64,000 nt of DNA from Cyanobacteriota bacterium. GTDB taxonomy: Bacteria; Acidobacteriota; Vicinamibacteria; Vicinamibacterales; UBA2999. Below the pieces are notes generated by a model that worked only from the letters and a program-made list of their open reading frames with translations, made no database searches and had not been told where the DNA came from. Where the stretch lies: positions 196,842 to 260,841 of the forward strand of contig JAIEMQ010000006.1 of assembly GCA_019752015.1 (NCBI GenBank), written 5' to 3'. Positions 7,132 to 40,735 of the stretch are shown here, piece after piece. Each line of letters opens with the position of its first letter. Positions within the stretch are counted from its first letter, which is position 1. Position numbers and translations under genes: made by a program.

Positions 7132-7232
7132 GACAGGTGGGGAATAGTCCGCTTCGGTTGGGACATTCCGCGCAGGCGCGGCGAATCTCGCGATCGCACT
7201 GGGCATCTGGTGCCTGGGACACGCCGGCTTAC

Positions 7233-7248
7233 TGGCTCACAGCTTGCA
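7233..7248 (+). promoter_or_regulatory. Candidate sigma54 promoter TGGCTCACAGCTTGCA upstream of hydrogenase operon
   Basis: Matches TGGCAC-R-N4-TTGCW with correct GG/GC spacing; GGGGAATAGTCCGC at 7139-7152 upstream. Confidence 0.5.
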
Positions 7249-7303: not shown

Positions 7304-7459
7304 ATGAGACGGCACCACGAAGAGCTCGCGGCGGCACCGGCACTCGTCACGGCGGTCACGGCCCTCATTCCCATCGGCGTCGCGGTCTGGATCCGCGTCA
7401 AGGAATGGCGCGGTCAGCACGACGGTCCCACACCTCGAAAGCGAGGGGAATCCACATGA
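7304..7459 (+). CDS. Small hypothetical protein preceding hyaA
   Basis: MRRHHEELAAAPALVTAVTALIPIGVAVWIRVKEWRG; single TM; translationally close to hyaA. Confidence 0.35.
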   Translation: MRRHHEELAAAPALVTAVTALIPIGVAVWIRVKEWRGQHDGPTPRKRGEST

Positions 7460-21155: not shown

Positions 21156-22532
21156 TCACCGCGTCGAGGTGAAAGACAGCGGCCCGTGCAGCACGTCAAC
21201 GGCAACATCTGCGTGCATGTCGGCGAGTATGAGAACACCGGCAACCGAGCGGAACGCGAGCTCGGGTGGTAGACGGGGTAGCGCCGCTGCCACACACTCG
21301 GTAACGGGGCGCGTTCCTTGCGCCGACCCACCGATCCGCACGACATGCCAAGTACCGGAGTACAGTTCGCCGGCGTCGCAACCGGCGCGCAACACGGCAA
21401 CCAGTCGCGCACTGATCGCCGCCGCGGCGGTCGGCGTGAAGAATTGACCGGGAGACGTTGTCGGCCGTTCCGCGAGGATGCCCTTGGCCAGTTCCACAGA
21501 CTCGATTACGTCAGGTTCGAGCCCGGCGCGCCGATGCACTTGGCCGAGGCGCCTTTCCACCTGGCGGTGAAGAAACGCGTACGAATCGGCGGCACGTTGA
21601 AACGCGACGATCGCGTCGACGTCCGCAAATGACGACTGGGCGGCAGATCTGGCGCTAGCGAGTGCGATCAACGCCGCTGATGCGGCGATCATCGGAAGTC
21701 TCCGTATGATGCGGCGCCAGGTCTCCACGGCCTTTGCTCGACGATTCGGAACCGCCAGAACGAACGCGCGATCCGTTTTCAGCACGGCCGAGGCTATCCC
21801 ACCAGGTTGACATCGCGGCGTGGCGCGTAGGCCCATTACCACCAAGCCGGATCCCTCGACCACCGCGCAGCGGGAGATCTCTTTCGCGACCGATCCGCGT
21901 CGGACGATAAGCGAATGCGGCTTTACTGTCATACGATGCGCGCGCTCGCGTAAGTCCTCTGATGCCTGATGATCGGTGACACGGCTCTTCGCGACGGTCA
22001 TCAACAGCAACGGTTGCGCGCCAAGTTGTGCAATGGCAGCGGCCATCTGTAACTGCTCGCCGGACTCCTCAGCGAGGTCCACGGCGGCAATCACCGCACC
22101 GCTCGTCAGCGAAACGCGGTCGCCGATGCTGACGATGTCCATGTCGATTGGGGGAACCAACAGCACCACCGTGGTGGCATTCCTGAGTACCGCTTCGCTA
22201 GTCGAGCCCAGAGTGAACTTCGCAACCGCGCTGTGCCGGCGCGATCCCATAACGACGAGCGCGGCGTCGCTCGCGATGGCTTCGCGCGCGATCGCATCCG
22301 ATACATGACCCGTCCGAATTGCTACCTGCCCGTCGTCGAAATCAACTTGATACGGGCCAAGCTGAACGCACGCGTTTAGCACCCGCTCGCGCGTATCGCG
22401 GCTGGTGTCGCCATTGACGTGGAGAACCTCTAATGGCGCACCGAACAGCCGCGCAAACGCCGCAGCGTGATACAGCACGCGCGGGGTAAGCGGACCGAGA
22501 TCAATGGCTGCAATGACAGGACCGGCATTCAT
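21156..22532 (-). CDS. Universal stress domains fused through a signal-anchor-like segment to a secreted domain of unknown function
   Basis: USP motifs ALVVMGSRRHSAVAKFTLGSTSEAVLRNATTVVLLVP and GSGLVVMGLRAT; hydrophobic RRLPMIAASAALIALASARSAAQ; C-terminal domain resembles the 30150-30638 product. Confidence 0.75.
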   Translation of the reverse strand: MNAGPVIAAIDLGPLTPRVLYHAAAFARLFGAPLEVLHVNGDTSRDTRERVLNACVQLGPYQVDFDDGQVAIRTGHVSDAIAREAIASDAALVVMGSRRHSAVAKFTLGSTSEAVLRNATTVVLLVPPIDMDIVSIGDRVSLTSGAVIAAVDLAEESGEQLQMAAAIAQLGAQPLLLMTVAKSRVTDHQASEDLRERAHRMTVKPHSLIVRRGSVAKEISRCAVVEGSGLVVMGLRATPRCQPGGIASAVLKTDRAFVLAVPNRRAKAVETWRRIIRRLPMIAASAALIALASARSAAQSSFADVDAIVAFQRAADSYAFLHRQVERRLGQVHRRAGLEPDVIESVELAKGILAERPTTSPGQFFTPTAAAAISARLVAVLRAGCDAGELYSGTWHVVRIGGSAQGTRPVTECVAAALPRLPPELAFRSVAGVLILADMHADVAVDVLHGPLSFTSTR

Positions 22533-22550
22533 AGCTTTGCCCGTGTAAGG

Positions 22551-22566
22551 GGCAAGCTCCGTGCCT
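22551..22566 (-). promoter_or_regulatory. Candidate sigma54 promoter AGGCACGGAGCTTGCC
   Basis: Only the first T and last W differ from TGGCACG-N4-TTGCW; located 19 nt before ATG at 22532. Confidence 0.55.
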
Positions 22567-22998
22567 CGTCAATCGCATCGAATTCGGGCGCAAATCGGCC
22601 GTTTCTCGACACCGCCGCCACGAACTTTTCCGCGACGCGGGGAATATTCTGGCCCTTTCAATGCAGATTCTCGAGCTTTCGCCGGATATCGTTGCGGCAC
22701 GTCTTTCGCTGTCTATATCGGCATGGGAGGGTTGCTACGCGTTTTCCTGTTCGCGGGTTGCGGCCCGCATTGGCCATGCTCGTGATCGCCCAGGGCCTCG
22801 CGCACGCTGTGCCGCCGCTTCGCGGTTCGATTCATCATCCGTACTACGGTTGGTGAGGAGCCGATCCCCGTGTGAGCGGCGGCGCTTAACATGATGGCGT
22901 TCGAGTCACCGCACTTCATCATGGAGCGAAAGATGATGCCGCAGATCAAGGCCTGGGCCGAGTGGCAGTCCTGACGCGTTCGGTTTGCCGTAGCCCAT

Positions 22999-23553
22999 AT
23001 GACTCGACGATCTCTGCACATCGAGCCGGCAGGCCTGCTACCAGTTGCCCGCCACTACGTCCGTGAGCTGGTCTACGGCGCCAACGACGGCATCATCACG
23101 ACGTTTGCGGTTGTCGCCGGTGTGGCAGGCGGAGGTCTCTCCCTGCGCGTCGTCCTGATTATCGGAGCAGCCAATCTGGTTGCCGACGGTCTGTCAATGG
23201 CCGCGGGCAACTACCTGGCGATTCGATCGCATGAGAGCGTCCTCGAGGCACAAGGGCTGCCGGAGGAGGAGGCGTTCCCGACACGTCACGCGATTGCGAC
23301 ATTCCTCGCATTTGTGTCTGCGGGTGCGGTTCCACTGTTGCCGTACATGATCGAAGGCCTGCCGGTGGATCGCTTCATTGCGTCGGTCGTGTTGACTCTC
23401 GGCGCGATGTTCCTCGTCGGCGCCCTGCGGGCCCTCATCGCCAATGTCCGATGGTGCAACGCCGGTGCCGAGATGTTGATCCTCGGCGCCGTCGTCGCGC
23501 TCCTGGCATATGTCAGCGGCGGACTCGTCGCCCGTCTGGTCGAAGGAGCCTGA
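22999..23553 (+). CDS. VIT1/CCC1-type transporter-like membrane protein
   Basis: RELVYGANDGIITTFAVVAGVAGGGLSLRVVLIIGAANLVADGLSMAAGNYLAIRSHESV. Confidence 0.88.
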   Translation: MTRRSLHIEPAGLLPVARHYVRELVYGANDGIITTFAVVAGVAGGGLSLRVVLIIGAANLVADGLSMAAGNYLAIRSHESVLEAQGLPEEEAFPTRHAIATFLAFVSAGAVPLLPYMIEGLPVDRFIASVVLTLGAMFLVGALRALIANVRWCNAGAEMLILGAVVALLAYVSGGLVARLVEGA

Positions 23554-23842
23554 AGAGCCGCCCGCGCAGGAACGACTCCACATTACAAACGACGGCGGCG
23601 CCACGATCGGCAGCCCGCCGCCGCCACTTTTCAGATCCTTCGGAATTCAGTCGCGGCTGGATCGGGCCAAGCGATCATTCGATTCGCCGATGCATCAGCG
23701 CGTACTCGCGCGTCGCACTGATAAACCGCTCGTCGGGCGCCGCCGGCGGCGATTGCGCGGACGCCGTACCGGTCAGCATGGCCAGGCACACCGTTACCAG
23801 GAATAGATTCGATGATGTGTTGCACACGATTGTTCTCCTGTA

Positions 23843-24355
23843 CTACGCTGCTGCTGCTGCGAGCAGCCGGCGGAACTCATCCGCGAACGCGCGTACGTCG
23901 GCCCAGTCGGTGTAGTCGTAATCGCGCGACACGTCCGTATCCCCGCCCGCCTTGGCGACGATGCGTTTCATGATCCATTGCTTGAAGATGTTGTAGCGCG
24001 TGTAGAGCAATGCGCCGGCGACCTGCTTGACCATCGGCGGCTGCCATCCCGTCGTTGTTTCGAACCCCGTGACGATGGCCGCAAGTTCCGCCCGCACTTT
24101 CGGATCGGACTTCTGCAGCACCGCCAGGCATACCGACACGAAGGCCGTCGGCCTTGCACCGAATTCATGCGTGTGAGCCCTCACCCATTGCTCGACGGCT
24201 TTCTGGTAACGGCCGGCGTGAATCGATGCGGCCACTATGATGCCGTCGTATACGTAAAGCGCAGGATCGAGCGTGCCCGCCTGGATGACATCGGTAGCGA
24301 CGCCGTACGTCGACAACCCCTCGGCGATTCCGTACAAGATCAGTACTCGTGACAT
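23843..24355 (-). CDS. hemG: Flavodoxin-like protoporphyrinogen oxidase HemG homolog, FMN loop apparently missing
   Basis: IQAGTLDPALYVYDGIIVAASIHAGRYQKAVEQWVRAH...FVSVCLAV...YTRYNIFKQWIMKRIVAKAGGDTDVSRDYDYTDW; N-terminus MSRVLILYG-IAEGL lacks the usual TTxGHT segment. Confidence 0.7.
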   Translation of the reverse strand: MSRVLILYGIAEGLSTYGVATDVIQAGTLDPALYVYDGIIVAASIHAGRYQKAVEQWVRAHTHEFGARPTAFVSVCLAVLQKSDPKVRAELAAIVTGFETTTGWQPPMVKQVAGALLYTRYNIFKQWIMKRIVAKAGGDTDVSRDYDYTDWADVRAFADEFRRLLAAAAA

Positions 24356-24381
24356 GACGACTCCTCCCGCGTCACCGACCG

Positions 24382-25284
24382 TTAATGCACCGGCCTGGCC
24401 TGAATCGATTCAATGAAATCGACCAGGGACTGAATCATCCGCGCGACTCTCTCCGGATCGCCGCCGTCGCGCGAGCGCGCAAAGGCGTCGCCCCACACCG
24501 GCATGTCCGGCCCGCCATGCCCGCGGATCGGCTTCTTGCCATCGATGGTTCGGAACACGAGCTCCGACGGAAACAATCCGCCATTCCGTTTGGCGATCTC
24601 TGTCAGATCCGCCGGCTTGCGCGTCATCGACGAGGCCAGCGGGCCGTCGCCCCGCGCCGCGGTGCCATGACAGGCGGCACAATACGTACGAAACAGCTCC
24701 CCCCCGGAAACGGCCTGCTTCATCTCGGTGGCCTGCGCGAGTCCTGGCGTCGGCACAAGCAGCAATGTGAGCATCAAGGCGCCGATCGCGCACATCGTCG
24801 CGGCGGCGGCTGGTTTCTTCTCGGCCTCGCGAATCTTTTCGCGCGTCTCGCGGACGGTCAACACCGGACACGGCGCCGTGCGCACCACGCGTTCGGCGAC
24901 GTTGCCCACGAGGACATGCATCAGCGGGCCGTGACCGTGCGTGCCCATCACAATCATGTCGGCGTGTGCTGTGGTCGCCGCCGTCACGACGCCGCGCGCC
25001 GGATTGCCGAAGAGCACCTCGGTCGACACAAGGACATCGGGCAGCCGCTGTTGACGCTCCAGCAGTTGCTTCTCGGCCTCCTCGCCGAGCCGCTGGCTCC
25101 AGTCCGTATAGGCGACTGCGTACGCGTCGATCGAGCCGGTCCCCATCGCAGGCACTTCACAAACGTGCACCAGATGTAGCGCGGCGTCGAATCGCCGCGC
25201 CATGAGTCGGGCGTACTCCAGTGCAAGCTCGGAGTTCGCGCTGAAGTCCAGAGGCACGAGGATCTTCTTGATGTCGAGCGTCAT
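24382..25284 (-). CDS. Universal stress protein fused through a TM segment to a periplasmic cytochrome c domain
   Basis: MTLDIKKILVPLDFSANSELAL...VMGTHGHGPLMHVLVGNVAERVVRTAPCPVLTVR; TM MCAIGALMLTLLLVPTPGLAQ; CAACH heme site GGELFRTYCAACHGTAARGDGPLA. Confidence 0.85.
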   Translation of the reverse strand: MTLDIKKILVPLDFSANSELALEYARLMARRFDAALHLVHVCEVPAMGTGSIDAYAVAYTDWSQRLGEEAEKQLLERQQRLPDVLVSTEVLFGNPARGVVTAATTAHADMIVMGTHGHGPLMHVLVGNVAERVVRTAPCPVLTVRETREKIREAEKKPAAAATMCAIGALMLTLLLVPTPGLAQATEMKQAVSGGELFRTYCAACHGTAARGDGPLASSMTRKPADLTEIAKRNGGLFPSELVFRTIDGKKPIRGHGGPDMPVWGDAFARSRDGGDPERVARMIQSLVDFIESIQARPVH

Positions 25285-25320
25285 GGCGATTCCCTTTCGC
25301 AAAACTGTCTACCGGTTAAG

Positions 25321-25336
25321 GGCAACGGTCATGCCA
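25321..25336 (-). promoter_or_regulatory. Candidate sigma54 promoter TGGCATGACCGTTGCC
   Basis: TGGCAT-G-N4-TTGC with correct spacing, 37 nt before ATG at 25284; CGGGGATTTCCCCG at 25390-25403 upstream. Confidence 0.6.
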
Positions 25337-25437
25337 TGAGGCCCCACGGTCAAATGCGCGCGAAAAGGCTTGACAACGGCACCATCGTTCGGGGATTTCC
25401 CCGATCCCGCGGAAAAACCCCCGCGAGCGGCTTGCCG

Positions 25438-25929
25438 CTACGCCGACGTCGCTACTGTCAGCGCGTCGGGCGCGATGAACTCACGTTCGTGCGCGCGGAC
25501 CGCGAGCACCGGACACGGCGCCGTGCGAACCACGCGCTCTGCGACGCTGCCCATGAGCAGCTGTTTCATCGCGCCGCGGCCGTGCGTGCCGACGACAATC
25601 ACATCGATTAGCTGCGCCTTGGCGTAGGCGACGATGGCGGCGGCCGCGTTGGTCGCGCTCTCGAGCGCTGGGACGACTCGCAGGTCGCGGATATTGTCGG
25701 CGCTAATAAGCTGGTCGAGCTCACATCGCGCGGCACGATCGAGATCGCGTTGCATCTCCGGCACGGCGAACCCAACCTCAGGAGCGTACCGCAACATCAT
25801 GTTGTCCGTGACGTGTAGCACGTGCAGCGTGGCGTTATAGGCGCGCGCCAGGTCGCGTCCGTACGCGAGTGCGTTCGCCGACGGCTCGCTGAAATCCGTT
25901 GCGACTAGGATTCTCTTCAGAACGATCAT
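25438..25929 (-). CDS. Universal stress protein (UspA family)
   Basis: MIVLKRILVATDFSEPSANALAYG...VVGTHGRGAMKQLLMGSVAERVVRTAPCPVLAVR. Confidence 0.9.
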   Translation of the reverse strand: MIVLKRILVATDFSEPSANALAYGRDLARAYNATLHVLHVTDNMMLRYAPEVGFAVPEMQRDLDRAARCELDQLISADNIRDLRVVPALESATNAAAAIVAYAKAQLIDVIVVGTHGRGAMKQLLMGSVAERVVRTAPCPVLAVRAHEREFIAPDALTVATSA

Positions 25930-25975
25930 GAGTGCCTCGCAATCTCCCGGCAGACGGGCCGGCCGACCACGGATG

Positions 25976-25991
25976 AGCACAAGACGTACCA
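25976..25991 (-). promoter_or_regulatory. Weaker candidate sigma54 promoter TGGTACGTCTTGTGCT
   Basis: GG and GC spaced correctly with two mismatches; 47 nt before ATG at 25929. Confidence 0.35.
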
Positions 25992-26037
25992 CCGGTATAC
26001 TGCCGAAGGTTGGCGCAATTCTTGATATGTCACAGGC

Positions 26038-26502
26038 ATGACTAAGACCACCACCGCCGTTGGACGTGATTCCGGGCGTGAACTGAGGGATCCGGCTCTA
26101 CCGCAGTGGGAGATTTCCGGGCCGGCCGTGAGAAAAATCCCACGACGGGTGCTGGTCGTAGACGACGAGCCGCTGATCCGGTGGTCGGTGACCGAGACAT
26201 TGGCCGGGCTGGGACTTGACGTTGAGCAGGCCCATGACGCGGTATCCGCGCTGCGCGCCATCACCGCACCCAGGGACGGATTCGACGTCGTCATCCTCGA
26301 CCTGCGATTGCCGGACATGAACGATCTGTCGCTGCTGGCGACGATTCGCCAGGTCGTTCCCGACGTGACGATCGTGCTCATGACTGCGTTCGGAACTGAC
26401 GAGGTCGTCGAACGCGCGATCGCGCTCGGCGCCTGCTCAGTACTGCACAAGCCTTTCGAGCTAGGCGCGCTTGTCGCCGCCGTCTACGGGGCGTCCACCT
26501 AA
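26038..26502 (+). CDS. Stand-alone response regulator receiver protein
   Basis: [24 protein letters not shown]...VVILDLRLPDMNDLSLLATIRQ...LMTAFGT...VLHKPFE. Confidence 0.85.
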   Translation: MTKTTTAVGRDSGRELRDPALPQWEISGPAVRKIPRRVLVVDDEPLIRWSVTETLAGLGLDVEQAHDAVSALRAITAPRDGFDVVILDLRLPDMNDLSLLATIRQVVPDVTIVLMTAFGTDEVVERAIALGACSVLHKPFELGALVAAVYGAST

Positions 26503-27866
26503 TGCCGAACGCGACGGTGCTCGTCGTCGATGACGAACCACTCATTCGATGGTCGCTGGTCAACAGGCTGAAGGAAGACGGCTACCGCACCCTTGAAGCA
26601 GGAACCGGTGCGGATGCGGTAGCCCAACACCGGGAGGGCGTCGACCTGGTGCTCCTCGATTTTGCCCTGCCCGATTCAAACGGCTTGAGCGTCCTCAAGC
26701 AGATCAAAGAAGCCGATCCGGACACGCTGGTGATCATGTTGACCGCACACACTGGCGTGGAGACGGCAGTCGAGGCGATGAAGGGCGGCGCCTATCACTA
26801 CGCTAACAAACCGTTCGATCTCGACGAAGTCATGCTGCTGGTCGAGAAGGCGCTGGAGACCACGCAACTGCGGCGTGAGGTGCGGACGCTGCGCGCCAAA
26901 CAGGCCCAGCCCTTTGGTCTCGAGAGCATTGTCGGCAACAGCGACGCGATCAAGAACGTGCGCGGGCTGCTGAAAAAGATTGGCGTCAGCCCGGCGTCGA
27001 CGGTGCTGCTGATGGGCGAGAGCGGTACCGGCAAGGACCTCGCCGCAAAAGTGATCCACTACAGCAGCAACCGGGCGGCACGGTCGTTCATGAACATCAC
27101 GTGCTCGGCCTTGCCGGAGACGCTGCTCGAAAGCGAGTTGTTCGGGCATGAACGAGGAGCGTTCACCGGTGCCGATCGGCAGAAGCGCGGGTTGATCGAG
27201 TCCGCCGACGGCGGCACCGTGTTTCTCGACGAGATTGGCGAAATGGTGCCGTTGCTTCAGGCCAAGCTGTTGCGGTTCCTGGAGGAAAAGTCCTTCAAAC
27301 GGGTCGGAGGTTCGGCGGACGTCAAGGTCGACGTCCGGGTGATCGCCGCCACCAATCGCTCGCTACAGGAAGAAGTAAAGCAGGGACGCTTCCGCGAGGA
27401 TCTGTACTATCGACTGAACGTGATGGCCGTCACGTTACCACCCCTGCGCGAGCACCGCGAAGACATCCGCCTGCTGATCGATCACTACATCGACGTTTTC
27501 AACCTCGAGTTCCGGAAGAAAATCCACGGCCTTACTCCCACCGCGCTGGCGGCACTCGAAGGTTACGCGTGGCCGGGGAACGTTAGAGAACTACGGAACG
27601 CAGTGGAGCGCGCAATGCTACTCGCCGAGGGTACTGACGTGACGGAAGTACATTTTCCGATGCTCACCGCGGTCGAGCCCAGTCTGTCGACAGGCATGGC
27701 GCTGCCGGTGGGCGGCATCAACCTCGACGCACTGGAGCGCTCGCTGGTGACGCAGGCGCTGGAACGCTGCAACTGGAACCAAACCAAGGCGGCGCTGCTC
27801 CTCGGCCTCAACCGCGATCAGATTCGTTACCGGATCGAGAAGTTCAACCTTCAGAAACCGTCGTAG
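26502..27866 (+). CDS. NtrC-family sigma54-dependent response regulator
   Basis: REC domain; [35 protein letters not shown]; Fis-type [28 protein letters not shown]. Confidence 0.95.
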
Positions 27867-28929
27867 GCAACCGCACGGTGATCTCGGTCCCGCCTGCCGG
27901 CGGACAGACGACGCTAATCTGGCCGCCGTGCAGCTCCACTAGCCTCTTGGCGGTCGCCATACCGAGTCCGGTGCCGCGCGCTTTCGTGGTCTTGAAGGGG
28001 CGGAACAGCTCGGCACGAATCTCCGCAGGGATACCCGGCCCCTGATCGATGATCTCGACCGACTGCCAGTCGTGGTCGGCGTGACATTTCACGTCGATCG
28101 TACCGCGCCCCTGCATTGCCTGTGCGGCGTTGATCAACAGATTCTGAAACGCGATGTCGAGCAGATTTGCATCGCCGGCAATTGGGGGTACGCTGCCGGT
28201 GATCGAGATCTCGAGCGCCGGAAACGCCGGGTCGGTTTTTAACAGCGACGCGATCGACGCAAGCATCGCCGTTATGTCGAGGGCCGCAAACTTCGGCTTC
28301 GGCGGACGCGCGAACACTAGCAGGTCCTGGATCAAATCGTTCAGGCCATCGAGACGCGCAATGATCTCCTTGACGATCACCGCATCGGAGGTGCTTGGCG
28401 GCAGGCGTGTGCCAAGCACTTGAATCGCGCCGCGCACCGCTGCTAAGGGGTTCTTGACTTCGTGCGCGATGACCGCCGCCATTTCGCCCAATCGCGCCAG
28501 CGCCGTCGCCTCGCGCAGCCGATCCTCGAGCTCGGTGCGCCGCGAGAGGTCGTGTAGGATTCCTGTAAAGTGCTTCTCCCCGTCGAGATCGAGCTCGCCG
28601 ACGGACAGATGCAGGGGAAAGGTAGTGCCGTCTTTCCGCCGACCCGTCACGGCGCGCCCGATACCGATGATGCGTCGCTCACCCGTCTGGAGGTGATGCG
28701 CGATGTATCCGTCGTGCCGCGATCGGTCGGGCTCTGGCATCAAAAGTTTGACATTCTGCCCGAGTGACTCGCTTTCGTTATAGCCGAACATCCGCAGCGC
28801 CGAGGCATTGATCGCCTCGACGATGCCGTGTGCATCGATGACGATGATGCCGTCCACAGCGGCGTCGACGATCGCGCGCCATCGCGCCGCGCCGACGCGT
28901 TCGTCGGGGGCGGCGTTGCCCTGATTCAT
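27844..28929 (-). CDS. PAS-domain sensor histidine kinase (NtrB-like)
   Basis: PAS VDAAVDGIIVIDAHGIVEAINASALRMFGYNE; H-box VIAHEVKNPLAAVRGAIQVLG; GTGLGMATAKRLVELHGG. Confidence 0.93.
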   Translation of the reverse strand: MNQGNAAPDERVGAARWRAIVDAAVDGIIVIDAHGIVEAINASALRMFGYNESESLGQNVKLLMPEPDRSRHDGYIAHHLQTGERRIIGIGRAVTGRRKDGTTFPLHLSVGELDLDGEKHFTGILHDLSRRTELEDRLREATALARLGEMAAVIAHEVKNPLAAVRGAIQVLGTRLPPSTSDAVIVKEIIARLDGLNDLIQDLLVFARPPKPKFAALDITAMLASIASLLKTDPAFPALEISITGSVPPIAGDANLLDIAFQNLLINAAQAMQGRGTIDVKCHADHDWQSVEIIDQGPGIPAEIRAELFRPFKTTKARGTGLGMATAKRLVELHGGQISVVCPPAGGTEITVRLPTTVSEG

Positions 28930-28938
28930 GCGATCAGT

Positions 28939-29475
28939 CTAACGCTTCAATGCGGCTCGAAGCGACGGCAGGTCGGCGCGATACGCGACGGGATCGCCAT
29001 ACGGTGCGAAAGCCTGATACCGGCCGTGCGGTTCCCGAACCCGCCGCGCATGACGGATCGGACACCAGTATTGCTCGGTGCGTGCTGCCACCTCGCGCAC
29101 GTACGCAATCAGGCCGTTCGCGTAACTGCAGTACAGACAGTTCACTTTCTCCAGGCCGTTCAGATACGCGAGCTTGTGGCGGTCGAGTACGAAGTAGTGG
29201 CGCCGTCTTACGCGCCGAAGCGCCCACGCCCGGAAACAGATCGCTTGATAGATCGACACCCAGGCATCAAGAATCACGAACGGAACGATCGTCGAGTAGA
29301 TCACCGGTGCGCTGAGCAGCGTCGTAACACCGCCACGCGTGATGTAACGCCACAGCCCCGTGCGCAGCCGCCGGTGGTCGGCGCGCACAGCCGGATCGCG
29401 CTGGGCCCGTCGCCGGGCCGCGCGCGTCTGCTGACGCGCATCGGCCGGCGCTCGTTTCGCGATTGGCTCGCGTGA
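28939..29475 (-). CDS. Conserved hypothetical membrane-associated protein with CLYC motif
   Basis: TTLLSAPVIYSTIVPFVILDAWVSIYQAICF...VNCLYCSYANGLIAYVREVAARTEQYWCPIRHARR. Start uncertain. Confidence 0.55.
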   Translation of the reverse strand, partial: SREPIAKRAPADARQQTRAARRRAQRDPAVRADHRRLRTGLWRYITRGGVTTLLSAPVIYSTIVPFVILDAWVSIYQAICFRAWALRRVRRRHYFVLDRHKLAYLNGLEKVNCLYCSYANGLIAYVREVAARTEQYWCPIRHARRVREPHGRYQAFAPYGDPVAYRADLPSLRAALKR

Positions 29476-29507
29476 CAACACGCGAAGGGCTGTGGCCCGA
29501 TGTCGCT

Positions 29508-29948
29508 TCACTCCTCCTCCCGCGTCGTGGCTTTTTTCATCCGGCGCAGGTGCGCGTCGTGTTTGGACAGTTCCGCCGGCCGGTGCGCGATCATATCGAG
29601 CAAGTCCGAGACCGTTACGATCCCGGCAACGTTGCCCTTGGCCGAGGTCACGACCAGCGATCCGATCGAGCGGCCCTTCATCAGTGCCGCCGCCCGACGT
29701 ATTGGCGTGCGCGAAGTCACGGTGACAACCGGCGCGGTCATTAAATCGCCAACGGTCCACTTGCCCAGTGTCTTCGGCAGTTTGGTGCCGCCAAGATCGC
29801 GCTCCGACACGATCCCCTGTAATTCGCCGTCGCGTGTGACTACGAGATGCCGGATCCTCCGGTTCCGCATACGCGTCTTCGCCTCTGATGCTGCGACCTC
29901 CGGATGGACCGTTTCAACGGACTTGCTCATCACCTCGTAAACCCGCAT
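29508..29948 (-). CDS. CBS-domain pair protein
   Basis: MRVYEVMSKSVETVHPEVAASEAKTRMRNRRIRHLVV...VGDLMTAPVVTVTSRTPIRRAAALMKGRSIGSLVV. Confidence 0.85.
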   Translation of the reverse strand: MRVYEVMSKSVETVHPEVAASEAKTRMRNRRIRHLVVTRDGELQGIVSERDLGGTKLPKTLGKWTVGDLMTAPVVTVTSRTPIRRAAALMKGRSIGSLVVTSAKGNVAGIVTVSDLLDMIAHRPAELSKHDAHLRRMKKATTREEE

Positions 29949-29969
29949 GACAGCCTCCACCGGTCAAAG

Positions 29970-29985
29970 TGCAATTGACGGGCCG
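29970..29985 (-). promoter_or_regulatory. Candidate sigma54 promoter CGGCCCGTCAATTGCA for CBS gene
   Basis: GG and TTGCA spaced correctly; 22 nt before ATG at 29948. Confidence 0.5.
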
Positions 29986-30026
29986 AGCCCTGAGCGAGAT
30001 TGCGGCGGCTTCAGCCGCCGCGATCG

Positions 30027-30063
30027 GGGGAATAGTCCGCAGTCGGCGCGAGAGATTCCCCGC
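30027..30063. promoter_or_regulatory. Candidate activator-binding element GGGGAATAGTCCGC-N14-ATTCCCCGC between divergent sigma54 promoters
   Basis: GGGGAATAGTCCGC also occurs at 7139-7152 with a similarly placed ATTCCGCGC. Confidence 0.45.
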
Positions 30064-30103
30064 CCCGCTCACGACACTTCAGGCCGATTTCCTGCAGTTC
30101 GGC

Positions 30104-30119
30104 TGGCATGAACGATGCT
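30104..30119 (+). promoter_or_regulatory. Candidate sigma54 promoter TGGCATGAACGATGCT
   Basis: TGGCAT-G-N4-ATGCT with correct spacing, 31 nt before ATG at 30150. Confidence 0.55.
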
Positions 30120-30149
30120 TTAGCCAGGGTAAATCGAAGGGAACACCCA

Positions 30150-30638
30150 ATGAGAACCATCGCCACCGGCCTATTGGCACTCGCGCTCGCTCATGGCAGT
30201 GCCGCCGCGCAAACCGCCGGCGAACAGGCGCAGATCCTTCGGGACTTCCAGCACCGCGTGGCGGAATACACGCAGCGTCATCGTTGCCTCGACATGTTCC
30301 CCGAGGCCACCGACGCCGCAACGCCCGCGCCGAGGATCTTTACGCCGCCGGTGGCGATGGTCTTCCGCCAGATGATTGCCCGAACGCTCGCTGAACGTGA
30401 CGGCGTGGCTGCCATCAGCGGCGTCGGCGCATATGCGCATGCGACCGCTCTGGAGCCATTCCCCTCGCTCGAGCTCCATGACTTCCCGCGGGTGTTGGCC
30501 GACGCGCTGCCGCCGTTGCCGGCGGCCCTTGAATATCGGCTGATTAGACATGACCTGGTTATCCGCGACAAGGAGCTGAACATCATCGTCGACGTGGTTC
30601 GCAACGCGGTCGGGCCGGCGCTCACCGTCATTCGTTAA
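30150..30638 (+). CDS. Secreted protein of unknown function, paralogous to the C-terminal domain of the USP fusion at 21156-22532
   Basis: Signal peptide MRTIATGLLALALAHGSAAAQ; PRIFTPPVAMVFRQMIARTL...LPPLPAALEYRLIRHDLVIRDKELNIIVDVV. Confidence 0.7.
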   Translation: MRTIATGLLALALAHGSAAAQTAGEQAQILRDFQHRVAEYTQRHRCLDMFPEATDAATPAPRIFTPPVAMVFRQMIARTLAERDGVAAISGVGAYAHATALEPFPSLELHDFPRVLADALPPLPAALEYRLIRHDLVIRDKELNIIVDVVRNAVGPALTVIR

Positions 30639-30714
30639 GGAGGGCGTTATCGCCAATTCTCTCGTATCGACGCCGCCGCGGCCTTATCCGAGCAACCAGC
30701 TCTTACTCCGGGTG

Positions 30715-30885
30715 ATGAGTGAGTACGACGAGATGCCGAGTCTGCGCCTGACCATGGCTCAGGCCATGCGATTGTGGGGACTCGATGAGCCGATGTGCGA
30801 GGCGGTGTTACACACGCTAGTCGAAGCGGATTTTCTCCAACGGGACCACTGGGGACAATTCGCAAAACGGCACGCCGCCTATTGA
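30715..30885 (+). CDS. Small hypothetical protein with winged-helix-like sequence
   Basis: MSEYDEMPSLRLTMAQAMRLWGLDEPMCEAVLHTLVEADFLQRDHWGQFAKRHAAY. Confidence 0.45.
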   Translation: MSEYDEMPSLRLTMAQAMRLWGLDEPMCEAVLHTLVEADFLQRDHWGQFAKRHAAY

Positions 30886-31143
30886 TGGAGGACCATCATG
30901 ATGCGCAACTTGGCAGTCGCTCTCCTTGCGAGGACGCTCGGCGCAGGTTGCGCGTCGATCACGGCGAGCGCGGACATCGATTGTGCTCCGATGCCGCAAT
31001 CGATTGCACGCGCGATGCCAAGAAGGAAACAGCGCAGGCGCCTGTTTCTGCACTTGAGCCCGACAGCCCAGAGGGAATTACCCCGGCGGCTGGAAATAGT
31101 CCACGGCCGTTGAGTGTGGCCTGCCTCGTGTTCTGTCTAGATC

Positions 31144-31740
31144 ACTAGCGCACTATCAGTACGGGCGTTCGGCTGCGATCCAACGCGCCCTGCGCGACGC
31201 TGCCGATGAGGAGCCCGCGGAGGCCGGTAGCACCGGTCGCGCCTAGCACAAGCAAGTCGGCATCCTCCGATGTGCAGGCGCTCAACAGCGCTTGTAAGGG
31301 AGCCGCTTCGCTAACGAAGACAGTCCACCTTTGGCGTTTTCGTTGGCGACTTCTGTTTGCATCGTTGCCCTGGGCGCACCGCCGGTCAACGCGCCGGAGG
31401 GCGCCTGCATCATGTGAACCGCCATGACCAGCGCGATCCGCGCGTCGTCGGGTGCCAGCCTGGTGAGGAATTCAATAGGCCGTGCGCTGTTTGGCGACCC
31501 GTCGTAACAAGCACGACTCGGCGCAGATTTCTCGACGCCTGGCACACGACCAACACGGAACATGACGCGTGACGCACAACGCCGCGGGAGACGCTGCCGA
31601 CGAGCAGCCGACGCATCACTCCATGGCCGCGCCAACCCATCACAATTAGATTGGCACGCGTTCGGCGTGACTGACGCAGGATCACCGACACCGGCTCACC
31701 GGAGTACCGCAAGACGCGTGCGTTTCTTCGCGGCCATTGG
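31144..31740 (-). pseudogene. Tandem universal stress protein, frameshifted
   Basis: ANLIVMGWRGHGVMRRLLVGSVSRGVVRHASCSVLVV in one frame and EDADLLVLGATGATGLRGLLIGSVAQGALDRSRTPVLIVR in another. Confidence 0.6.
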
Positions 31741-31744
31741 CCCC

Positions 31745-33187
31745 TCAGTCGTGTTTTGTCTTGTGCGTGTGCGTCGTGGCCTTGCCGTCGCCGACCAGTA
31801 CCGTCCCCATCAGGCCGCCCTCGGCATGATCGAGAATGCGGCAGTGAATCATCCACTCGCCCGGCCGCTCGTCGAAATGCACGAGCAATCGCACCGTCGA
31901 TTTCATCGGCACGTTGACGGTGTCTTTCAGTGCCAACGGCCGAACCGGCTCCCCCTTTTCATCGAGAACGTGGAAGAAGAACCCGTGCAAGTGGAACGGA
32001 TGATCCCAGTCGGAGTCGTTCTTCACGGTCCAGATCTGTTTCTCACCGAGCTTCGACAGAAACGGCTTCGCCTTCCAGAACGGCAAGCCGTTGATGCGGA
32101 ACTCCGACTTATTGTTCTGCATCGGCGGCAGCGTCAATACCATCTCGACCGGCGTGGCGCCGGCCGTTGATGGCATTTCCAGCGCCCGCGATACGGTCAC
32201 GGGCTTGGCGTTGATGGACGGCTCGTTCGTGAACTCGATCGTCAGCACATCTTCGACGCTGCGGTATTCGACGCTGCCGTAACCGCGGTTGTAAAGCATC
32301 GCACGCAGCGGCAATGGCGCAGCGGGCTTGCCTTTCGGTGTCACGATCACATCGACGCGCTCACCGGCCGTAATCAGGAGGATGTCGGTCGTCACCGGTT
32401 TCTCTTGAATGCCGCCATCGACGCCGATGACCGTGAACTCCTGGCCGTCGAGATCGAGGTAGAAGAAACGGCTCTTGGCGGCGTTCACGATGCGCCAGCG
32501 CTGTGGCGCACCGGAACGCGCCTTGAGCACCGGCCGGTGGCGCCCGTTCACCAGCACGTAATCGCCTTCGCGCCCGAACACCATGCCCGCCGAGCCGCCG
32601 CTATCGGCCGGCTCGAGCTCGCCTCTCGCGTTGAAGCCGATATCGCTGAGCACCAGCGTTAGCTGATCGTCGACGCCGACGCCGTCATTGGGATCCTCGA
32701 CCAAGAGCGGGCCGTAAAGACCGAACCCCACCTGCGCAGCCGCCATGACGTGCGGGTGATACCAGTAGAGTCCCGCATCCCGCACGACGAAGCCGTAGGT
32801 GAACGACCCGTCCTCGTTGACCGGCGGTTGTGAGATGTCCGGCACGCCGTCCATCTCGATTGGCACGCGCACACCGTGCCAGTGGACCGTCGTCGGTTCC
32901 TTGAGTTCGTTCTTGAAGTGGACTATCAGCCGATCGCCGAGTCGCGTCTTGATGAGCGGGCCAGGCAGGCCGCCGTTATACGTCCAGGCGCGGACGCGTT
33001 TACCAGGCGCCACTTCGACGTCGGCGAGTTTCGCGACCAGCTCGACCTCGACGACCTTCGGATCGGGATTCGTATCGTCGAGTTCGTTGAGCCTCAGTCC
33101 ATCTGCCCAGCCGGCAGGCGCGTACGATTGGGCAGCGCCGTGAATCGGGACGAGGAGGCAGGCGGTCAGCAACAGGCGGACAACCAT
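31745..33187 (-). CDS. Multicopper oxidase with HCR in place of HCH in the C-terminal Cu motif
   Basis: TVHWHGVRVP, YWYHPHVMAA, DHPFHLHGFFF, MIHCRILDHAEGGLMGTVLV; signal peptide. Confidence 0.9.
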   Translation of the reverse strand: MVVRLLLTACLLVPIHGAAQSYAPAGWADGLRLNELDDTNPDPKVVEVELVAKLADVEVAPGKRVRAWTYNGGLPGPLIKTRLGDRLIVHFKNELKEPTTVHWHGVRVPIEMDGVPDISQPPVNEDGSFTYGFVVRDAGLYWYHPHVMAAAQVGFGLYGPLLVEDPNDGVGVDDQLTLVLSDIGFNARGELEPADSGGSAGMVFGREGDYVLVNGRHRPVLKARSGAPQRWRIVNAAKSRFFYLDLDGQEFTVIGVDGGIQEKPVTTDILLITAGERVDVIVTPKGKPAAPLPLRAMLYNRGYGSVEYRSVEDVLTIEFTNEPSINAKPVTVSRALEMPSTAGATPVEMVLTLPPMQNNKSEFRINGLPFWKAKPFLSKLGEKQIWTVKNDSDWDHPFHLHGFFFHVLDEKGEPVRPLALKDTVNVPMKSTVRLLVHFDERPGEWMIHCRILDHAEGGLMGTVLVGDGKATTHTHKTKHD

Positions 33188-33202
33188 GATTTTTAGGTCT
33201 TT

Positions 33203-33760
33203 CTATTTGGATCCGTCCGCGCGGTCGGCGATCTCAGCGATGAGGCGATCGATCATCAGCACGGCGTCGCGCCTGAGCAAGCGCCTGAGCACGAATGCCG
33301 GTACCTCGAACTTAGGTTGCGCCGACAGCTCGTATGTCACCGTCGTGCTGCCGCGGGTGCCCGTCAGGCGCCACGCCCCTTCGTAGATGGCGAAGCTCTT
33401 TCCACACCGATCGCGGAAGCGTATGGTGCCGCCGTTTTCGCTCACGTCGAGCAAGAGATGTACCTTCTTCGAAAACATCATGAATTTCGCCGTCGCTTCC
33501 TGTTCGATGACGACGCCGGCTTGAGTGCGCGAGAGTACCTGGCTTGTTTTCACGTCGGGCATGAACCGCGGGATGCGCTCGTAATCAGTGAGCACGGTGG
33601 CCACAGTCTTCACTGCCGCCCCAACAGTGAACGATGCCGTCACGCGGTACACGCCGTCGGTCTCTGCCACGTTGATGCTCGGCGCCTCCGCCGGCGACGC
33701 AAATACGATGGTCGCGGCAAGTGCCGCGACCATCGCTAATAGGGCCTGGACCATGAGCAT
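33203..33760 (-). CDS. Secreted SRPBCC/START-like protein
   Basis: VYRVTASFTVGAAVKTVATVLTDYERIPRFMPDVKTSQVLSR...WRLTGTRGSTTVTYEL. Confidence 0.75.
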   Translation of the reverse strand: MLMVQALLAMVAALAATIVFASPAEAPSINVAETDGVYRVTASFTVGAAVKTVATVLTDYERIPRFMPDVKTSQVLSRTQAGVVIEQEATAKFMMFSKKVHLLLDVSENGGTIRFRDRCGKSFAIYEGAWRLTGTRGSTTVTYELSAQPKFEVPAFVLRRLLRRDAVLMIDRLIAEIADRADGSK

Positions 33761-33771
33761 GATCTGCTCCG

Positions 33772-34800
33772 TCAGAAGGCGACCACGCCCTCGAGCATGA
33801 ACCCCTTGAACCGGCCGCCGTTCCTGACGTTGGCCGCCGGGTAACCAAAGTATTCCTGGTTGACATATTCACCTTTGGCCATCAAACCCGGAAGGATGAA
33901 CCAGCCGGCACCGATCTGCCAGCGATCCGCGCCAACGCCTGGCATCCCCGCCAAGTCACCCTTGGCGCGGTTGAACCGCACACCGAAGTACGCCTTCTCA
34001 TCGGGCAGGAAGCGATAGACCGCATCCACCGCGTATTGGTTCCAGATGCGTTCGTTCAATTCGGTGTTGGCCTTGCCTTCGGCGCGCTCGACCACGCCGA
34101 ATACTTCGGCACCGCCGAACTTCACGAACGGGTTGACCTGCAGCGCAACAATCTCATTCTTGAAGCCGGGGTTAATCAGGCCCGACGTAAAGTTTCCTGT
34201 CTCGGTCGCAGTAGTGTTTTCGAGGACCCAGTAATAGCGCGATCCAGCGCGGTCGCCGCCATACAAAGTGTTATTCAACGTCCGGTCGGTTGAGCGTCAC
34301 GATCTCGAACAACATCTTCAGCGGCGCGATGTCAATCGGGGATTGGTCGATCTGCAGGTAACCGTCCTTCACCCACGTTTCGTTGCGATGCCGTGAGGAC
34401 AGGTAACTCGTGAGCTGAACTCGGATCCCGGGTGCGAGCTGCGCGTGCACATACAAGTTCGCCGTCGAGGTGTTGAAGCCAAAGCCGATGTCGGCGAGCT
34501 GGTTGGCATTAACCCCGGCAACGACATTCGGCACTGCGGTGGTGCTGTGCGCCAAGTCCTGCAGCTGCGTGGTGAATGCGCCGCCGAAATCGAGCTTGAA
34601 CCCGGTGAATTCAACGCCCGGGTCCTTGGTCGTCTCGAAGATGTTGAGTCCGCGCTTGTCCTGTGGCCGCAGGTACTGAACCGTGATCGGACGGCCCTTC
34701 TTCCAGGCCTCGATCGCCGACGCGACCTTCCCTTCCTGATCGGTTTTCTCCGTCGGCCCAGCGGTAGCCGGCGGATCGGTGGGGGTGTCCTGCGCTCTCG
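33772..34800 (-). pseudogene. Outer-membrane beta-barrel (porin-like) gene: signal peptide lost, internal segment missing, frameshifted
   Basis: N-terminal part [19 protein letters not shown]...[49 protein letters not shown] ends in a different frame from C-terminal TLNNTLYGGDRAGSRYYWVLENTT...GGRFKGFMLEGVVAF. Confidence 0.6.
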
Positions 34801-36954
34801 CGATTTCGGACAGACCTGCTGGTAGTGCCCGCCATCGGCGAGCTCGTAGCGGAACCCAAGCTCGTGTTCCACCTGCTCGAGATCGCGCACCATCATCTGC
34901 GGCGCAAACGCCGCGCCGCATCGCTTGCAGGTGGCGGCGTCGCCACGGGCGCCGGCGTCCTTATAGAAGCTCACACCCAGCTGCGCCGGCCGTTGAAAGA
35001 TGTGAAACAGCTTGCCAAAGGGCAGCCACAACAGCGTCACGATCACCGTGATCGCGTGCAGCACGGCGAGAAAGTCATAGGCGTAGCCACGCATCCACGT
35101 ATAGCTCGCCGTCAGCATCAAGCCCGTCATACTGATCGCAAACAGGGCGAGCAGTGGCAGCACATCCTGCGCGAACTGCTGCGTCGCGGCGGCGCCGTGA
35201 TCGATCATGCGCCGCCGGAATGCGAGCATCACGCCCGCGATCACCGGCAACGACGCCCATACCAGCCCGTGAAAGATGATGAATGCGAAGAACGAGTCGA
35301 CCGGGAAGTCCTGCATCGCGACGCCGAACACGAACGCACGATACATCTCGACGTCGCCGGGCACCGTCTCGAAGTGAACCCATCCCCATACCAGCGGAAA
35401 CGTGATCGCCGCCGCCAGAACGCAGCCCCACATGATCAGCCAGTGCGCAAGGCCCCGCATTGATGAGCGCTGGAAGATGAAACGATTGCCGGCGACGTCA
35501 ATCGTTGCGCGCTTCGCCAGCGACACCGCGTTTCGCAGAGCCAACCCGCGAGTGAAATATGCCTGCCATCCGCGGCGCCAATACAACCGCGTCGGCGGAC
35601 GTTCGATCCACATCGCATAGCGATACGCAATGCCGAAGGTAGCAAACAACGTCGCAAAGGTGTAGCCGACGAGCGCGGCGTCGAAGTGCGCGAGGTTGCG
35701 CGAGCCGATGACGATCGCGCCGGCGAGCAGGAGCGTCATGGCGGCCGCCCATGCTCCGGCGCGGATCCGATCCACCGCATCGCGGGCGGGTATCGGCAGT
35801 GCCGCACGCCACGACACATCGGCGGGATGAAAGATGCGGCGATTCGCCAGCCACAGCAGACCAGCGGTCAGCGACAGCAGCGCGAAGCCTGGCCACAATA
35901 CGCCGAGGTAATCGCGAAACACTCCGAGCAGCAATGGAGGGAAGAAGCCGCCAAGGCCGCCGAGCGCGCCGACAAGTCCGGTGACGGTGCCGGTATCGCG
36001 AGGAAAACGCTCCGGCACGAGCTTGAAGACCGCACCGTTCCCCAAGCCGAGCAGCGCGGCGCAGCCAAGCGCGCCTACCGTGAACGGGATCATCGACGGC
36101 CACGCCAGGAGCAGGGCAAAACCCGCCACGCCGCTAAAAACCCACGATAGTACTCGTGCCCCGCCGATTCGATCAGCCAGCCAGCCGCCGAGCGGTCGCA
36201 TCAGCGTCGCGAGCACGACGAATCCGGCAGCGCGAAATCCGGCATCGGCAGGTGAGAGGCTAAACTGAGCGCGCAATAACGTCGGCAGATATATAGAGAA
36301 CGCGACGAAACCGCCAAAGGTGAGGAAATAGAAGGCGCCGAGCCACCACGCGACCGGCTCCTGCCGCAGCACGCGGAGCATCGCGGCGACGTTGGCTGGC
36401 CGTGCCGCCGCCGGATTGTTGCGCGCCAATCTCGCGAACACGATTGCCCAGACCAGGAGCAGCGCGGCAACGAATTGAAATACTGCCTGCCACCCGAAGG
36501 TCGCGGCAGCCACAGCACCGCCAAACACCGCTGCCGACTGCCCAAGTAGTCCGAGCCCGAATACGCCGAGCGCGGTGCCCTGCATGGCCGGCGGCGTCCA
36601 TCGCGACACAAACGCGGCGCCGATCGCGAACGAAGATCCCGCGAGGCCGATGAAGAATGCCGAGACCAGCAAGGCCTCGTAGCTCGTGGTCATCGACACG
36701 ATCCACGAGGCGATCGCCGACACGATCAGCAGGATCGTGAACATCGCGCGGCCACCGAAGCGATCGGTGAGCATGCCCATCGGCAGGCGCGCGATCGACC
36801 CGAGCAAAACCGGCACGGCCACGAGTAACGCAGTTTGTGAAGCAGAAAGGCCGTAGAGTTGCGTGAAGACGGGCGCGAGACCGCCAATCAATCCCCAGGC
36901 GGCGAATGAGATCGCAAACGAAACCGTGGCCAGACCCAGCGCGCGCCAGTTCAT
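34800..36954 (-). CDS. NarK-like MFS transporter fused to a cytochrome b/NarI-like membrane domain and C-terminal zinc-ribbon-like motif
   Basis: [23 protein letters not shown]; second TM region [33 protein letters not shown]...[19 protein letters not shown]...[41 protein letters not shown]...QQVCP. Confidence 0.75.
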
Positions 36955-37037
36955 CTCTACTACGCAGGACCGCGCCAACTTGGCTGCCGCCACATGCGCC
37001 CGGACCGACTATTACGCAATCGCCACGCGTTCGACGT

Positions 37038-37051
37038 ATGACGCCCGTCAT
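37038..37051. promoter_or_regulatory. Crp/Fnr-type palindrome ATGACGCCCGTCAT
   Basis: ATGAC-N4-GTCAT, 84 nt upstream of ATG at 36954. Confidence 0.55.
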
Positions 37052-37168
37052 AGCAGGCCGACAACGCGTCGCCTACCATCACTGTCGTGAATTCCCGCAG
37101 GAGCGTTGAAAATCCCGCTCCTTCATGCGACGAACCGTGGAATCTCGTCCGATTGTGACGGGCAGTCG

Positions 37169-37184
37169 CGGCATGAATTTCGCT
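37169..37184 (+). promoter_or_regulatory. Candidate sigma54 promoter CGGCATGAATTTCGCT
   Basis: GG/GC spacing correct, 26 nt before ATG at 37210; ATTCCCGC (37091) and AATCCCGC (37111) upstream, 20 bp apart. Confidence 0.4.
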
Positions 37185-37209
37185 CTGGTGTCGTAGAGGG
37201 AGGCAATCT

Positions 37210-37704
37210 ATGCATTACAGCCTTCTAGGCGCGCTGGCCGTTACGGGCATGTTCCTGCTTGCCCCTGCCGCAGCCGATGCCGCGTGTTGCAACGTCAAAG
37301 CGCACGTGGTTCCCACGATCGATGTCGAAGCGATCCTGCTACGGCAGCTGAGAGCGGATCCGCAGCTCGTACCTGCGCCGCCGGTACGGCAGCTGGCCGC
37401 GGTCTGGTTCCATCGTGCCGTGATCGTCGGACGATCGATGCTGCAGGGGCGGTATGTGATCGAACACGACAACGACCGGATGGCGCGTGGCGAGCCTTGC
37501 ACGCACATCTACGCCTACGCTGATTTTGCCGACGGCGATCGCACGAAACCGGTGGCCGCGTTCCATTGCACCCATCTCGAACGGGACCGCGCCGATCAGA
37601 ATACCGTTGTGCTCGTCACCGCGCCGGATGGCCGCATGCAAGGGCTGACGGAGTTCCAGTTCGCGGGTGAGACAGCATCGCACGGCTATCCGACAGGCCG
37701 TTAA
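37210..37704 (+). CDS. Secreted protein of unknown function with RMARGEPC / AFHC motifs
   Basis: Signal peptide; HDNDRMARGEPCTHIY...VAAFHCTHLERD...LTEFQFAGETASHGYP, shared with 47689-48075 product. Confidence 0.6.
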   Translation: MHYSLLGALAVTGMFLLAPAAADAACCNVKAHVVPTIDVEAILLRQLRADPQLVPAPPVRQLAAVWFHRAVIVGRSMLQGRYVIEHDNDRMARGEPCTHIYAYADFADGDRTKPVAAFHCTHLERDRADQNTVVLVTAPDGRMQGLTEFQFAGETASHGYPTGR

Positions 37705-39405: not shown

Positions 39406-39505
39406 ACGGGGTCTCGAATGATTTCGCACTGCGGGGAAAATTCAGCACCGGTCGATCGAAATACCTGAAAAATCTGGCCGTTTGTGCGGGGTACGTCTCT
39501 TGCTC

Positions 39506-39519
39506 ATGACGCTCGTCAT
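39506..39519. promoter_or_regulatory. Crp/Fnr-type palindrome ATGACGCTCGTCAT
   Basis: About 49 nt upstream of ATG 39568 (plus). Confidence 0.55.
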
Positions 39520-39567
39520 ACACAAACGCCGCTGGCTCGGTCAGCCTACAGCTTGAGGATTGAACTC

Positions 39568-40716: not shown

Positions 40717-40735
40717 CGGCACGAAGGAGCCAATT

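Follow-up and report, generated by a model that had tools for sequence, protein, structure and literature searches.

A candidate low-oxygen sigma54 regulon around an NtrC-family activator and a FixL-type kinase in an Acidobacteriota genome

The NmpRSTU system of Myxococcus xanthus combines an NtrC-like regulator with a heme sensor kinase and a receiver-only protein, and its sigma54 promoters are preceded by tandem palindromes (PMC11841059). It is induced at low oxygen, its targets include CBS, universal stress protein (USP), heme-synthesis and respiratory genes, and its own signalling genes belong to the regulon; the globin-coupled sensor kinase acts via the hybrid kinase NmpS, and the DNA site is GCGCA-N5-TGCGC (PMC11841059). 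Low-oxygen gene sets rich in USPs are also found in the DosR regulon of Mycobacterium tuberculosis and the lxa locus of Burkholderia cenocepacia (PMC6127331).

We analysed a stretch of 64,000 nt (hereafter the window; JAIEMQ010000006.1 of assembly GCA_019752015.1, positions 196,842 to 260,841) from a genome of the lineage Acidobacteriota, Vicinamibacterales, UBA2999. A compact set of stress and respiration genes in it has in common the predicted binding site of one regulator beside sigma54 promoters (Table 1). NmpRSTU is the closest known system: logic and targets are similar, sigma54 promoters preceding CBS, USP and respiratory genes here too, whereas the sensor and the DNA site are different, the window having a FixL-type PAS kinase, the site GCGGGRAWWTYCCCGC and a hydrogenase among the targets. 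No NmpS-like hybrid kinase was found among the genes adjoining the activator, the adjacent kinase being of the PAS-HisKA type and not globin-coupled, and a search for GCGCA-N5-TGCGC with up to 2 mismatches returned 104 matches against 150 expected, with no pair at the target promoters. The DosR and lxa sets are controlled by DosR (LuxR/NarL type) or a FixK-type protein, in contrast to the sigma54 activator found here. The DosR regulon also includes CBS and nitrate-transport genes. FixJ belongs to the LuxR/NarL type and does not itself use sigma54, whereas the partner regulator in this locus is NtrC-type. In MmoS/MmoR of methanotrophs, which controls methane monooxygenase, a PAS kinase is linked to a sigma54 activator; MmoS-like PAS domains occur in the kinases of many sister loci, whereas the window's own kinase is FixL-type. 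In the open-access literature that we searched for Acidobacteriota with sigma54 or FixL, we found no description of low-oxygen control via sigma54 in this phylum.

Table 1. Features assigned to the candidate regulon, in window coordinates.
Feature	Position	Strand	Score or basis
UAS pair before hydrogenase genes	7137..7173		23.2 bits
sigma54 promoter of NiFe hydrogenase, TGGCTCACAGCTTGCA	7233..7248	+	14.8 bits
USP with C-terminal extension	21156..22532	-	Pfam Usp
sigma54 promoter before 21156..22532 USP gene, AGGCACGGAGCTTGCC	22551..22566	-	13.7 bits; equivalent in G005
UAS pair of 22551 promoter, weaker	22617..22652		19.1 bits
HemG-like flavodoxin gene behind USP-cytochrome gene	23843-24355		NCBIfam
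USP domain fused in-frame to cytochrome c domain	24382..25302	-	Pfam
sigma54 promoter of USP-cytochrome gene, TGGCATGACCGTTGCC	25321..25336	-	16.1 bits; orthologous in 4/4 congeners
UAS pair of USP-cytochrome promoter	25389..25424		29.0 bits, best pair of the window
Universal stress protein	25438..25992	-	Pfam Usp
sigma54 promoter of 25438 USP gene, TGGTACGTCTTGTGCT	25976..25991	-	13.6 bits; TGGCATG...TTGTGCT in congeners
Receiver-only response regulator directly before activator	26038..26502	+	Response_reg; adjoins activator in congeners too
UAS pair between USP gene and receiver/activator genes	26106..26143		25.5 bits
NtrC-family response regulator/sigma54 activator (receiver, AAA+, Fis-type HTH), proposed master regulator	26502..27866	+	Pfam domains
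Soluble PAS-HisKA-HATPase kinase, FixL-type heme PAS	27844..28929	-	FixL heme domain, phmmer E 4.6e-41
Uncharacterised gene between CBS and kinase genes	28939..29436	-	no Pfam match; exact start uncertain
Two-CBS-domain protein	29508..29960	-	Pfam; orthologues in congeners
sigma54 promoter of CBS gene, CGGCCCGTCAATTGCA	29970..29985	-	12.4 bits; 39.7 total including UAS pair
UAS pair common to divergent CBS and SEC1 promoters	30025..30063 (30025-30040, 30048-30063)		27.3 bits
sigma54 promoter of SEC1, TGGCATGAACGATGCT	30104..30119	+	16.2 bits; orthologous promoters
SEC1, secreted protein, function uncharacterised	30150..30638	+	no Pfam match; orthologues in two congeners
Weak UAS pair and promoter of SEC2 (37210-37704), tentative	37085..37184	+	28.9 total, the window's lowest
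UAS pair and promoter upstream of cytochrome c/cupredoxin gene and nosZ cluster, tentative	39414..39504	+	33.4, held-out scan

A first-pass annotation of this DNA had proposed a sigma54 stress/redox regulon with an NtrC-type regulator and a PAS kinase at its centre, and all the sequences that it cited lie where it placed them. Counted alone, -24/-12 matches are at chance level (109 observed, 112.8 ± 11.2 expected) and over the whole genome the reversed pattern outnumbers the pattern itself (63 versus 42), so that promoter density provides no evidence. The regulon is supported instead by the upstream elements and by orthologues.

These upstream elements are tandem pairs of imperfect 16-bp palindromes with centres 17-24 bp apart, the nearer palindrome lying 47-90 bp upstream of the -24 element, except at the 25438 USP gene, where the distance is 122 bp; together with orthologues, they back most of the cited promoters. 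Motif discovery against controls, suggested in that annotation, revealed enrichment of GGGGAA/TTCCCC, which occurs in only 5.4% of control stretches but in 16 of 28 promoter-anchored regions (1,426 6-mers tested; p about 7e-14, the regions being partly orthologous and so not fully independent). The full scan identified 10 promoter-plus-pair arrangements within the window; a motif trained without the window recovered 7, and none in 40 shuffles. In relatives' loci unused in training, the held-out motif gave 20 matches in 316 kb, whereas unrelated loci totalling 493 kb yielded 2, and 400 kb of two same-genus genomes without the regulator contained no such arrangement. Elsewhere in the genome that contains the window, we found one weak arrangement in 580 kb, and none at its oxidase loci or at its remaining CBS and USP loci. 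The scans used weight matrices on selected stretches, because the UAS-pair alignment lost register between the two sites and precluded a covariance model; the genome scan covered the window, strong-promoter matches, the USP, CBS and oxidase loci and a further 580 kb of sequence.

In congeners, equivalents at the orthologous positions are clear for the USP-cytochrome, USP and SEC1 promoters and less so for the CBS promoter, which has weaker equivalents in two congeners. The 25976 promoter had been listed as a weaker site; it is actually among the better supported, and one half of its UAS pair, previously unlisted, overlaps the point where the receiver gene probably starts. The true starts of the USP and receiver genes are probably an ATG near 25930 and a GTG near 26127, respectively. 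The CBS gene probably heads an operon that includes the kinase, and the uncharacterised gene between them has a homologue downstream of a UAS-sigma54 promoter in congener G008. Upstream of hydrogenase genes, UAS pairs are present in relatives G018, G035 and G050 and TGGCACG promoters in G035 and G050; two other genera have both promoter and pair, and a third has the pair alone. The hydrogenase region of the window shows frameshifts, which may or may not be real. The sites at 22551-22566 and 37169-37184, the latter the weakest of those cited, pass the full scan and fail the held-out scan. USPs, CBS, cytochrome c, hydrogenase and SEC1 were retained among the targets, SEC2 is tentative, and HemG is probably transcribed behind the USP-cytochrome gene and not from a promoter of its own. 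For the nos promoter, orthologue support was not found, the nosZ loci of two distant relatives being without a promoter-plus-pair. A strong -24/-12 match at 2331-2346 (-) was rejected for want of a UAS pair, and candidates at 31020 (-) and 22695 (+) for want of a convincing downstream gene.

The 26502 product is an intact NtrC-type activator as judged from its sequence: the receiver retains its Asp, the AAA+ domain carries GAFTGA at residue 219, and the recognition helix of the Fis-type HTH is near-invariant among 33 family members. The predicted paired upstream sites on -24/-12 promoters, together with a single-copy rpoN, reproduce the architecture of NtrC-family activators. In 20 of 21 loci, a kinase is encoded no more than about 2.3 kb away from the activator. 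The central proposal of the first-pass annotation, a sigma54 regulon with this activator and kinase in the middle, is supported by the held-out tests, the orthologous promoters in other genera, the absence of the arrangement from 400 kb of activator-less congeners, the single rpoN and the intact GAFTGA. USP domain matches number 6-15 per congener with the activator and 0-2 per congener without it; the activator-less genomes are also smaller, and this correlation may have other causes.

As for the signal, the kinase resembles rhizobial FixL, a heme-PAS oxygen-sensing kinase (PMC10765370): its PAS domain and the heme domain of Bradyrhizobium FixL (BjFixL) agree at 65 of 124 positions (52% identity), pocket residues are retained, and His72 aligns with the proximal heme histidine, BjFixL His200, while the BjFixL Arg206 position is occupied by His. 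We call it FixL-type and not FixL because its score against the FixL equivalog NF041777 (234.6 bits) lies below the NCBIfam cut-off of 850. Many sister loci carry a flavin-type PAS kinase instead, with MmoS/Aer/NifL-type PAS domains. Given this close relationship of the adjacent sensor to FixL, which senses oxygen through heme, the gene set is most likely switched on at low oxygen. The first-pass annotation had left the signal unnamed; with a FixL-type kinase, its "stress/redox" regulon becomes a probable low-oxygen one.

That these arrangements arose by chance, a genome of 64% GC being apt to contain GC-rich palindromes and -24/-12-like strings, is extremely unlikely: raw -24/-12 counts are at the chance level and single UAS-consensus matches barely exceed it (9 versus 5.1 expected), but the held-out motif tests, the matched genomic controls and the orthologous promoters in other genera contradict this reading. 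The genome encodes about 24 activator domains, and another NtrC-type activator might bind the UAS pairs while the local one controls something else. We consider this very unlikely, since the pairs cluster around this gene in many genomes and follow its orthologues into further genera and families, while the 400 kb of congeners that lack this activator, yet encode others, contain none.

The regulon could also be real and run by this activator while the kinase reads NO, CO or redox, giving a nitrosative or redox stress response. Heme PAS domains are able to bind NO and CO, and both the nearby nosZ cluster, NarK-type transporter and probable NnrS and the MmoS/Aer/NifL-type PAS kinases of sister loci would fit such a role. 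However, the heme pocket is like that of the oxygen sensor FixL, the targets agree with known low-oxygen regulons and the nos promoter is tentative only, which makes this alternative unlikely.

We regard as likely, taken as a whole, a low-oxygen regulon running from the FixL-type kinase through the NtrC-family activator to sigma54 targets; it builds on the conserved promoter and UAS architecture, the FixL-type heme pocket, the intact activator and rpoN. As oxygen falls, the soluble heme-PAS kinase, which would bind heme and O2, would lose its heme O2, become active and phosphorylate the adjacent activator, its presumed partner, while the receiver-only protein would probably compete for phosphate or buffer it. 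The activator would then bind the palindrome pairs (GCGGGRAWWTYCCCGC), about two helical turns apart and mostly 47-90 bp upstream of the -24/-12 elements, and drive sigma54 RNA polymerase. Expression would thereby extend to the universal stress proteins, the USP-cytochrome c protein with HemG behind it, the secreted protein and, in genomes having one, the NiFe hydrogenase; induction of the CBS protein within the probable kinase operon would provide positive feedback.

Acidobacteriota are abundant in soils with fluctuating oxygen. We give about even odds to a more general oxygen circuit in this phylum, running from a heme kinase of the FixL type to an NtrC-type sigma54 activator. Sister lineages would have swapped in a flavin-PAS kinase as sensor and kept activator, site and USP targets constant, and sigma54 would take the role that FNR, FixK or DosR play elsewhere. 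The sensor, activator, DNA site and target list described here are testable in a cultivated relative. M. xanthus Nmp is the one characterised case that we found of such sigma54 wiring, and the present locus suggests that the heme or flavin sensor varies between phyla while the kind of sigma54 output to which it is connected, serving USP/CBS survival genes, is shared.

The motifs quoted in the first-pass annotation were all found in the window. As evidence, however, the density of -24/-12 (sigma54) matches proved uninformative: 109 versus 112.8 expected from dinucleotide shuffles. The genome-wide scan did no better, YGGCAYGN5TGCY occurring 42 times versus 63 for the reversed pattern. The top match in the window (18.6 bits, before a Metal_resist-domain gene) lacked a UAS pair and is perhaps a promoter served by another activator; the -24/-12 matrix had approximate weights drawn from general knowledge. 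Motif discovery against controls located the signal in the upstream elements noted at the first pass. The top enriched 6-mer, GGGGAA/TTCCCC, was present within the 170 bp preceding 16 of 28 candidate promoters, which came from the window and four congeners and included non-independent orthologous regions, versus 5.4% of control stretches. These elements are paired imperfect 16-bp palindromes (UAS pairs, putative activator sites) with consensus GCGGGRAWWTYCCCGC and centres 17-24 bp apart.

As a guard against circularity, the window was scanned with a matrix from whose training it had been left out (held-out test, SIGNIFICANCE), yielding seven promoter-plus-pair hits versus none in 40 Markov shuffles; two, at 31020 (no convincing gene) and 39489 (the nos candidate), are not firm targets. 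A second matrix, trained on the window and congeners, gave 20 hits in 17 orthologous loci outside the training set (316 kb), versus 3 when the pair was sought downstream and a shuffle mean of 0.1; the control, GC-rich loci of unrelated NtrC-type genes, gave 2 in 493 kb. G003 and G004 belong to the same genus, and their closest matches to the activator reach just 46-47% identity; 400 kb of their sequence gave no hit. Elsewhere in the organism's own genome, 580 kb contained one weak hit, and within this partial scan the predicted regulon appears concentrated around its regulator.

Features of the window and their positions
Feature	Position	Strand	Observation
Top -24/-12 match	2331-2346	-
Hydrogenase promoter	7233-7248
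Hydrogenase	7456-10268		small-subunit gene with internal stop and frameshifts; large-subunit frameshift near 9780
Fic-domain protein gene	18553-19764		downstream of hydrogenase cluster
HemG-like flavodoxin	23843-24355
USP-cytochrome c	24382-25302
USP	25438-25992
NtrC-family activator	26502-27866	+
Kinase	27844-28929	-
CBS	29508-29960
SEC1	30150-30638
UAS-like pair, weak promoter	31020-31110	-	before or within region with USP remnants (31410-31856)
NarK-like transporter frame	34369-36993		runs into membrane electron-transfer-like region, then out-of-frame stretch over porin gene; possible frameshift
SEC2	37210-37704
nos candidate (UAS pair, promoter)	39414-39504
Nitrous oxide reductase cluster	39484-46435		cytochrome c/cupredoxin, NosZ, NosD, ABC permease

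The activator comprises receiver, AAA+ and Fis-type domains and retains GAFTGA and the receiver Asp. Its 15-residue recognition helix is nearly unchanged across 33 family members and differs in unrelated NtrC-type proteins; the genome encodes one rpoN and about 24 activator domains. Congeners bearing the activator had 6-15 USP domain matches, versus 0-2 in those without it, and carried TGGCATG/TGGCACG promoters at matching positions ahead of the USP-cytochrome, USP and SEC1 genes; the CBS promoter was present, though weaker, and that of USP2x was retained in one congener.

Among the targets first proposed, we retain as predicted targets USP-cytochrome c with the HemG-like flavodoxin behind it, the further USP genes, CBS, SEC1 and hydrogenase; the SEC2 and nosZ-side promoters are tentative. 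The nitrous oxide reductase cluster was not found in the congeners searched, and its NosZ scored slightly below the TAT-type cut-off (617.7 versus 625). The congeners lack the hydrogenase. G035 and G050, whose small subunits are 48-49% identical, have both a TGGCACG promoter and a UAS pair immediately ahead of the gene, G018 (80% identical, small subunit intact) has a UAS pair and no clear -12, and G013 and G037 showed neither promoter nor pair. The lesions in the window's hydrogenase genes reflect either decay or assembly errors. Since the CBS gene is followed, in the same direction and across short gaps, by an uncharacterised gene and the kinase gene, its promoter probably drives the kinase as well; G038 has a UAS-sigma54 promoter directly before the kinase gene itself. 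Relatives' genes behind such promoters include cytochromes, YceI, DUF4136, M48 proteins and P-type ATPases, the last in two congeners (L111:385, L114:15808).

The kinase has a PAS-HisKA-HATPase architecture, with no membrane domain noted. Its PAS domain matched the B. japonicum FixL heme domain (E = 4.6e-41, 65/124 residues identical); in the alignment His72 corresponds to the proximal His200 and Arg92 to Arg220, Ile, Leu and Val occupy 215, 236 and 238, and Arg206 is replaced by His. In SmFixL, Ile209, Ile210, Leu230 and Val232 lie over the distal face, and the heme domains of SmFixL and BjFixL share about 53% identity (PMC10765370). Because the kinase fell below the NCBIfam FixL equivalog cut-off, we call it FixL-type, a putative heme-PAS sensor. 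Of 21 loci, 20 have a kinase no more than about 2.3 kb from the activator. FixL-type PAS kinases are present at ten loci of the relatives; at most of the others the kinase has a PAS that best matches MmoS (2.8e-54), Aer and NifL, which bind FAD. Beside the activator in many sister loci (L118-L127, L129, L031), the FixL-type kinase is exchanged for an MmoS/Aer/NifL-like one, with activator and UAS retained, a putative natural sensor swap.

The genome measures 5.9 Mb in 82 contigs, one of which, 496 kb long, contains the window at bases 196842-260841. The activator's best named relatives are from Acidobacteriota assemblies (69% identity, 'Acidobacteria bacterium SZAS-18'; 65%, an assembly labelled Sulfopaludibacter); we regard the organism as an acidobacterium, perhaps, as a guess, of the order Vicinamibacterales. 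FixLJ has a sensor of this type but lacks the sigma54 output. Of the systems described in the open-licence papers searched, NmpRSTU of M. xanthus comes nearest; it combines an NtrC-like regulator, tandem palindromes, sigma54, a heme sensor kinase and a receiver-only protein, with CBS (hypoxia-induced), USP, heme-synthesis and oxidase genes as targets (PMC11841059). Its regulon also holds a P-type ATPase, like those of the two congeners. We nevertheless rejected filing the system as Nmp, because defining features differ: the sensor is a FixL-type PAS rather than a globin, the wiring is distinct (a hybrid kinase was not seen), and the DNA site is another, Nmp-type sites in the window numbering below chance. 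By analogy, the system would nonetheless work like Nmp.
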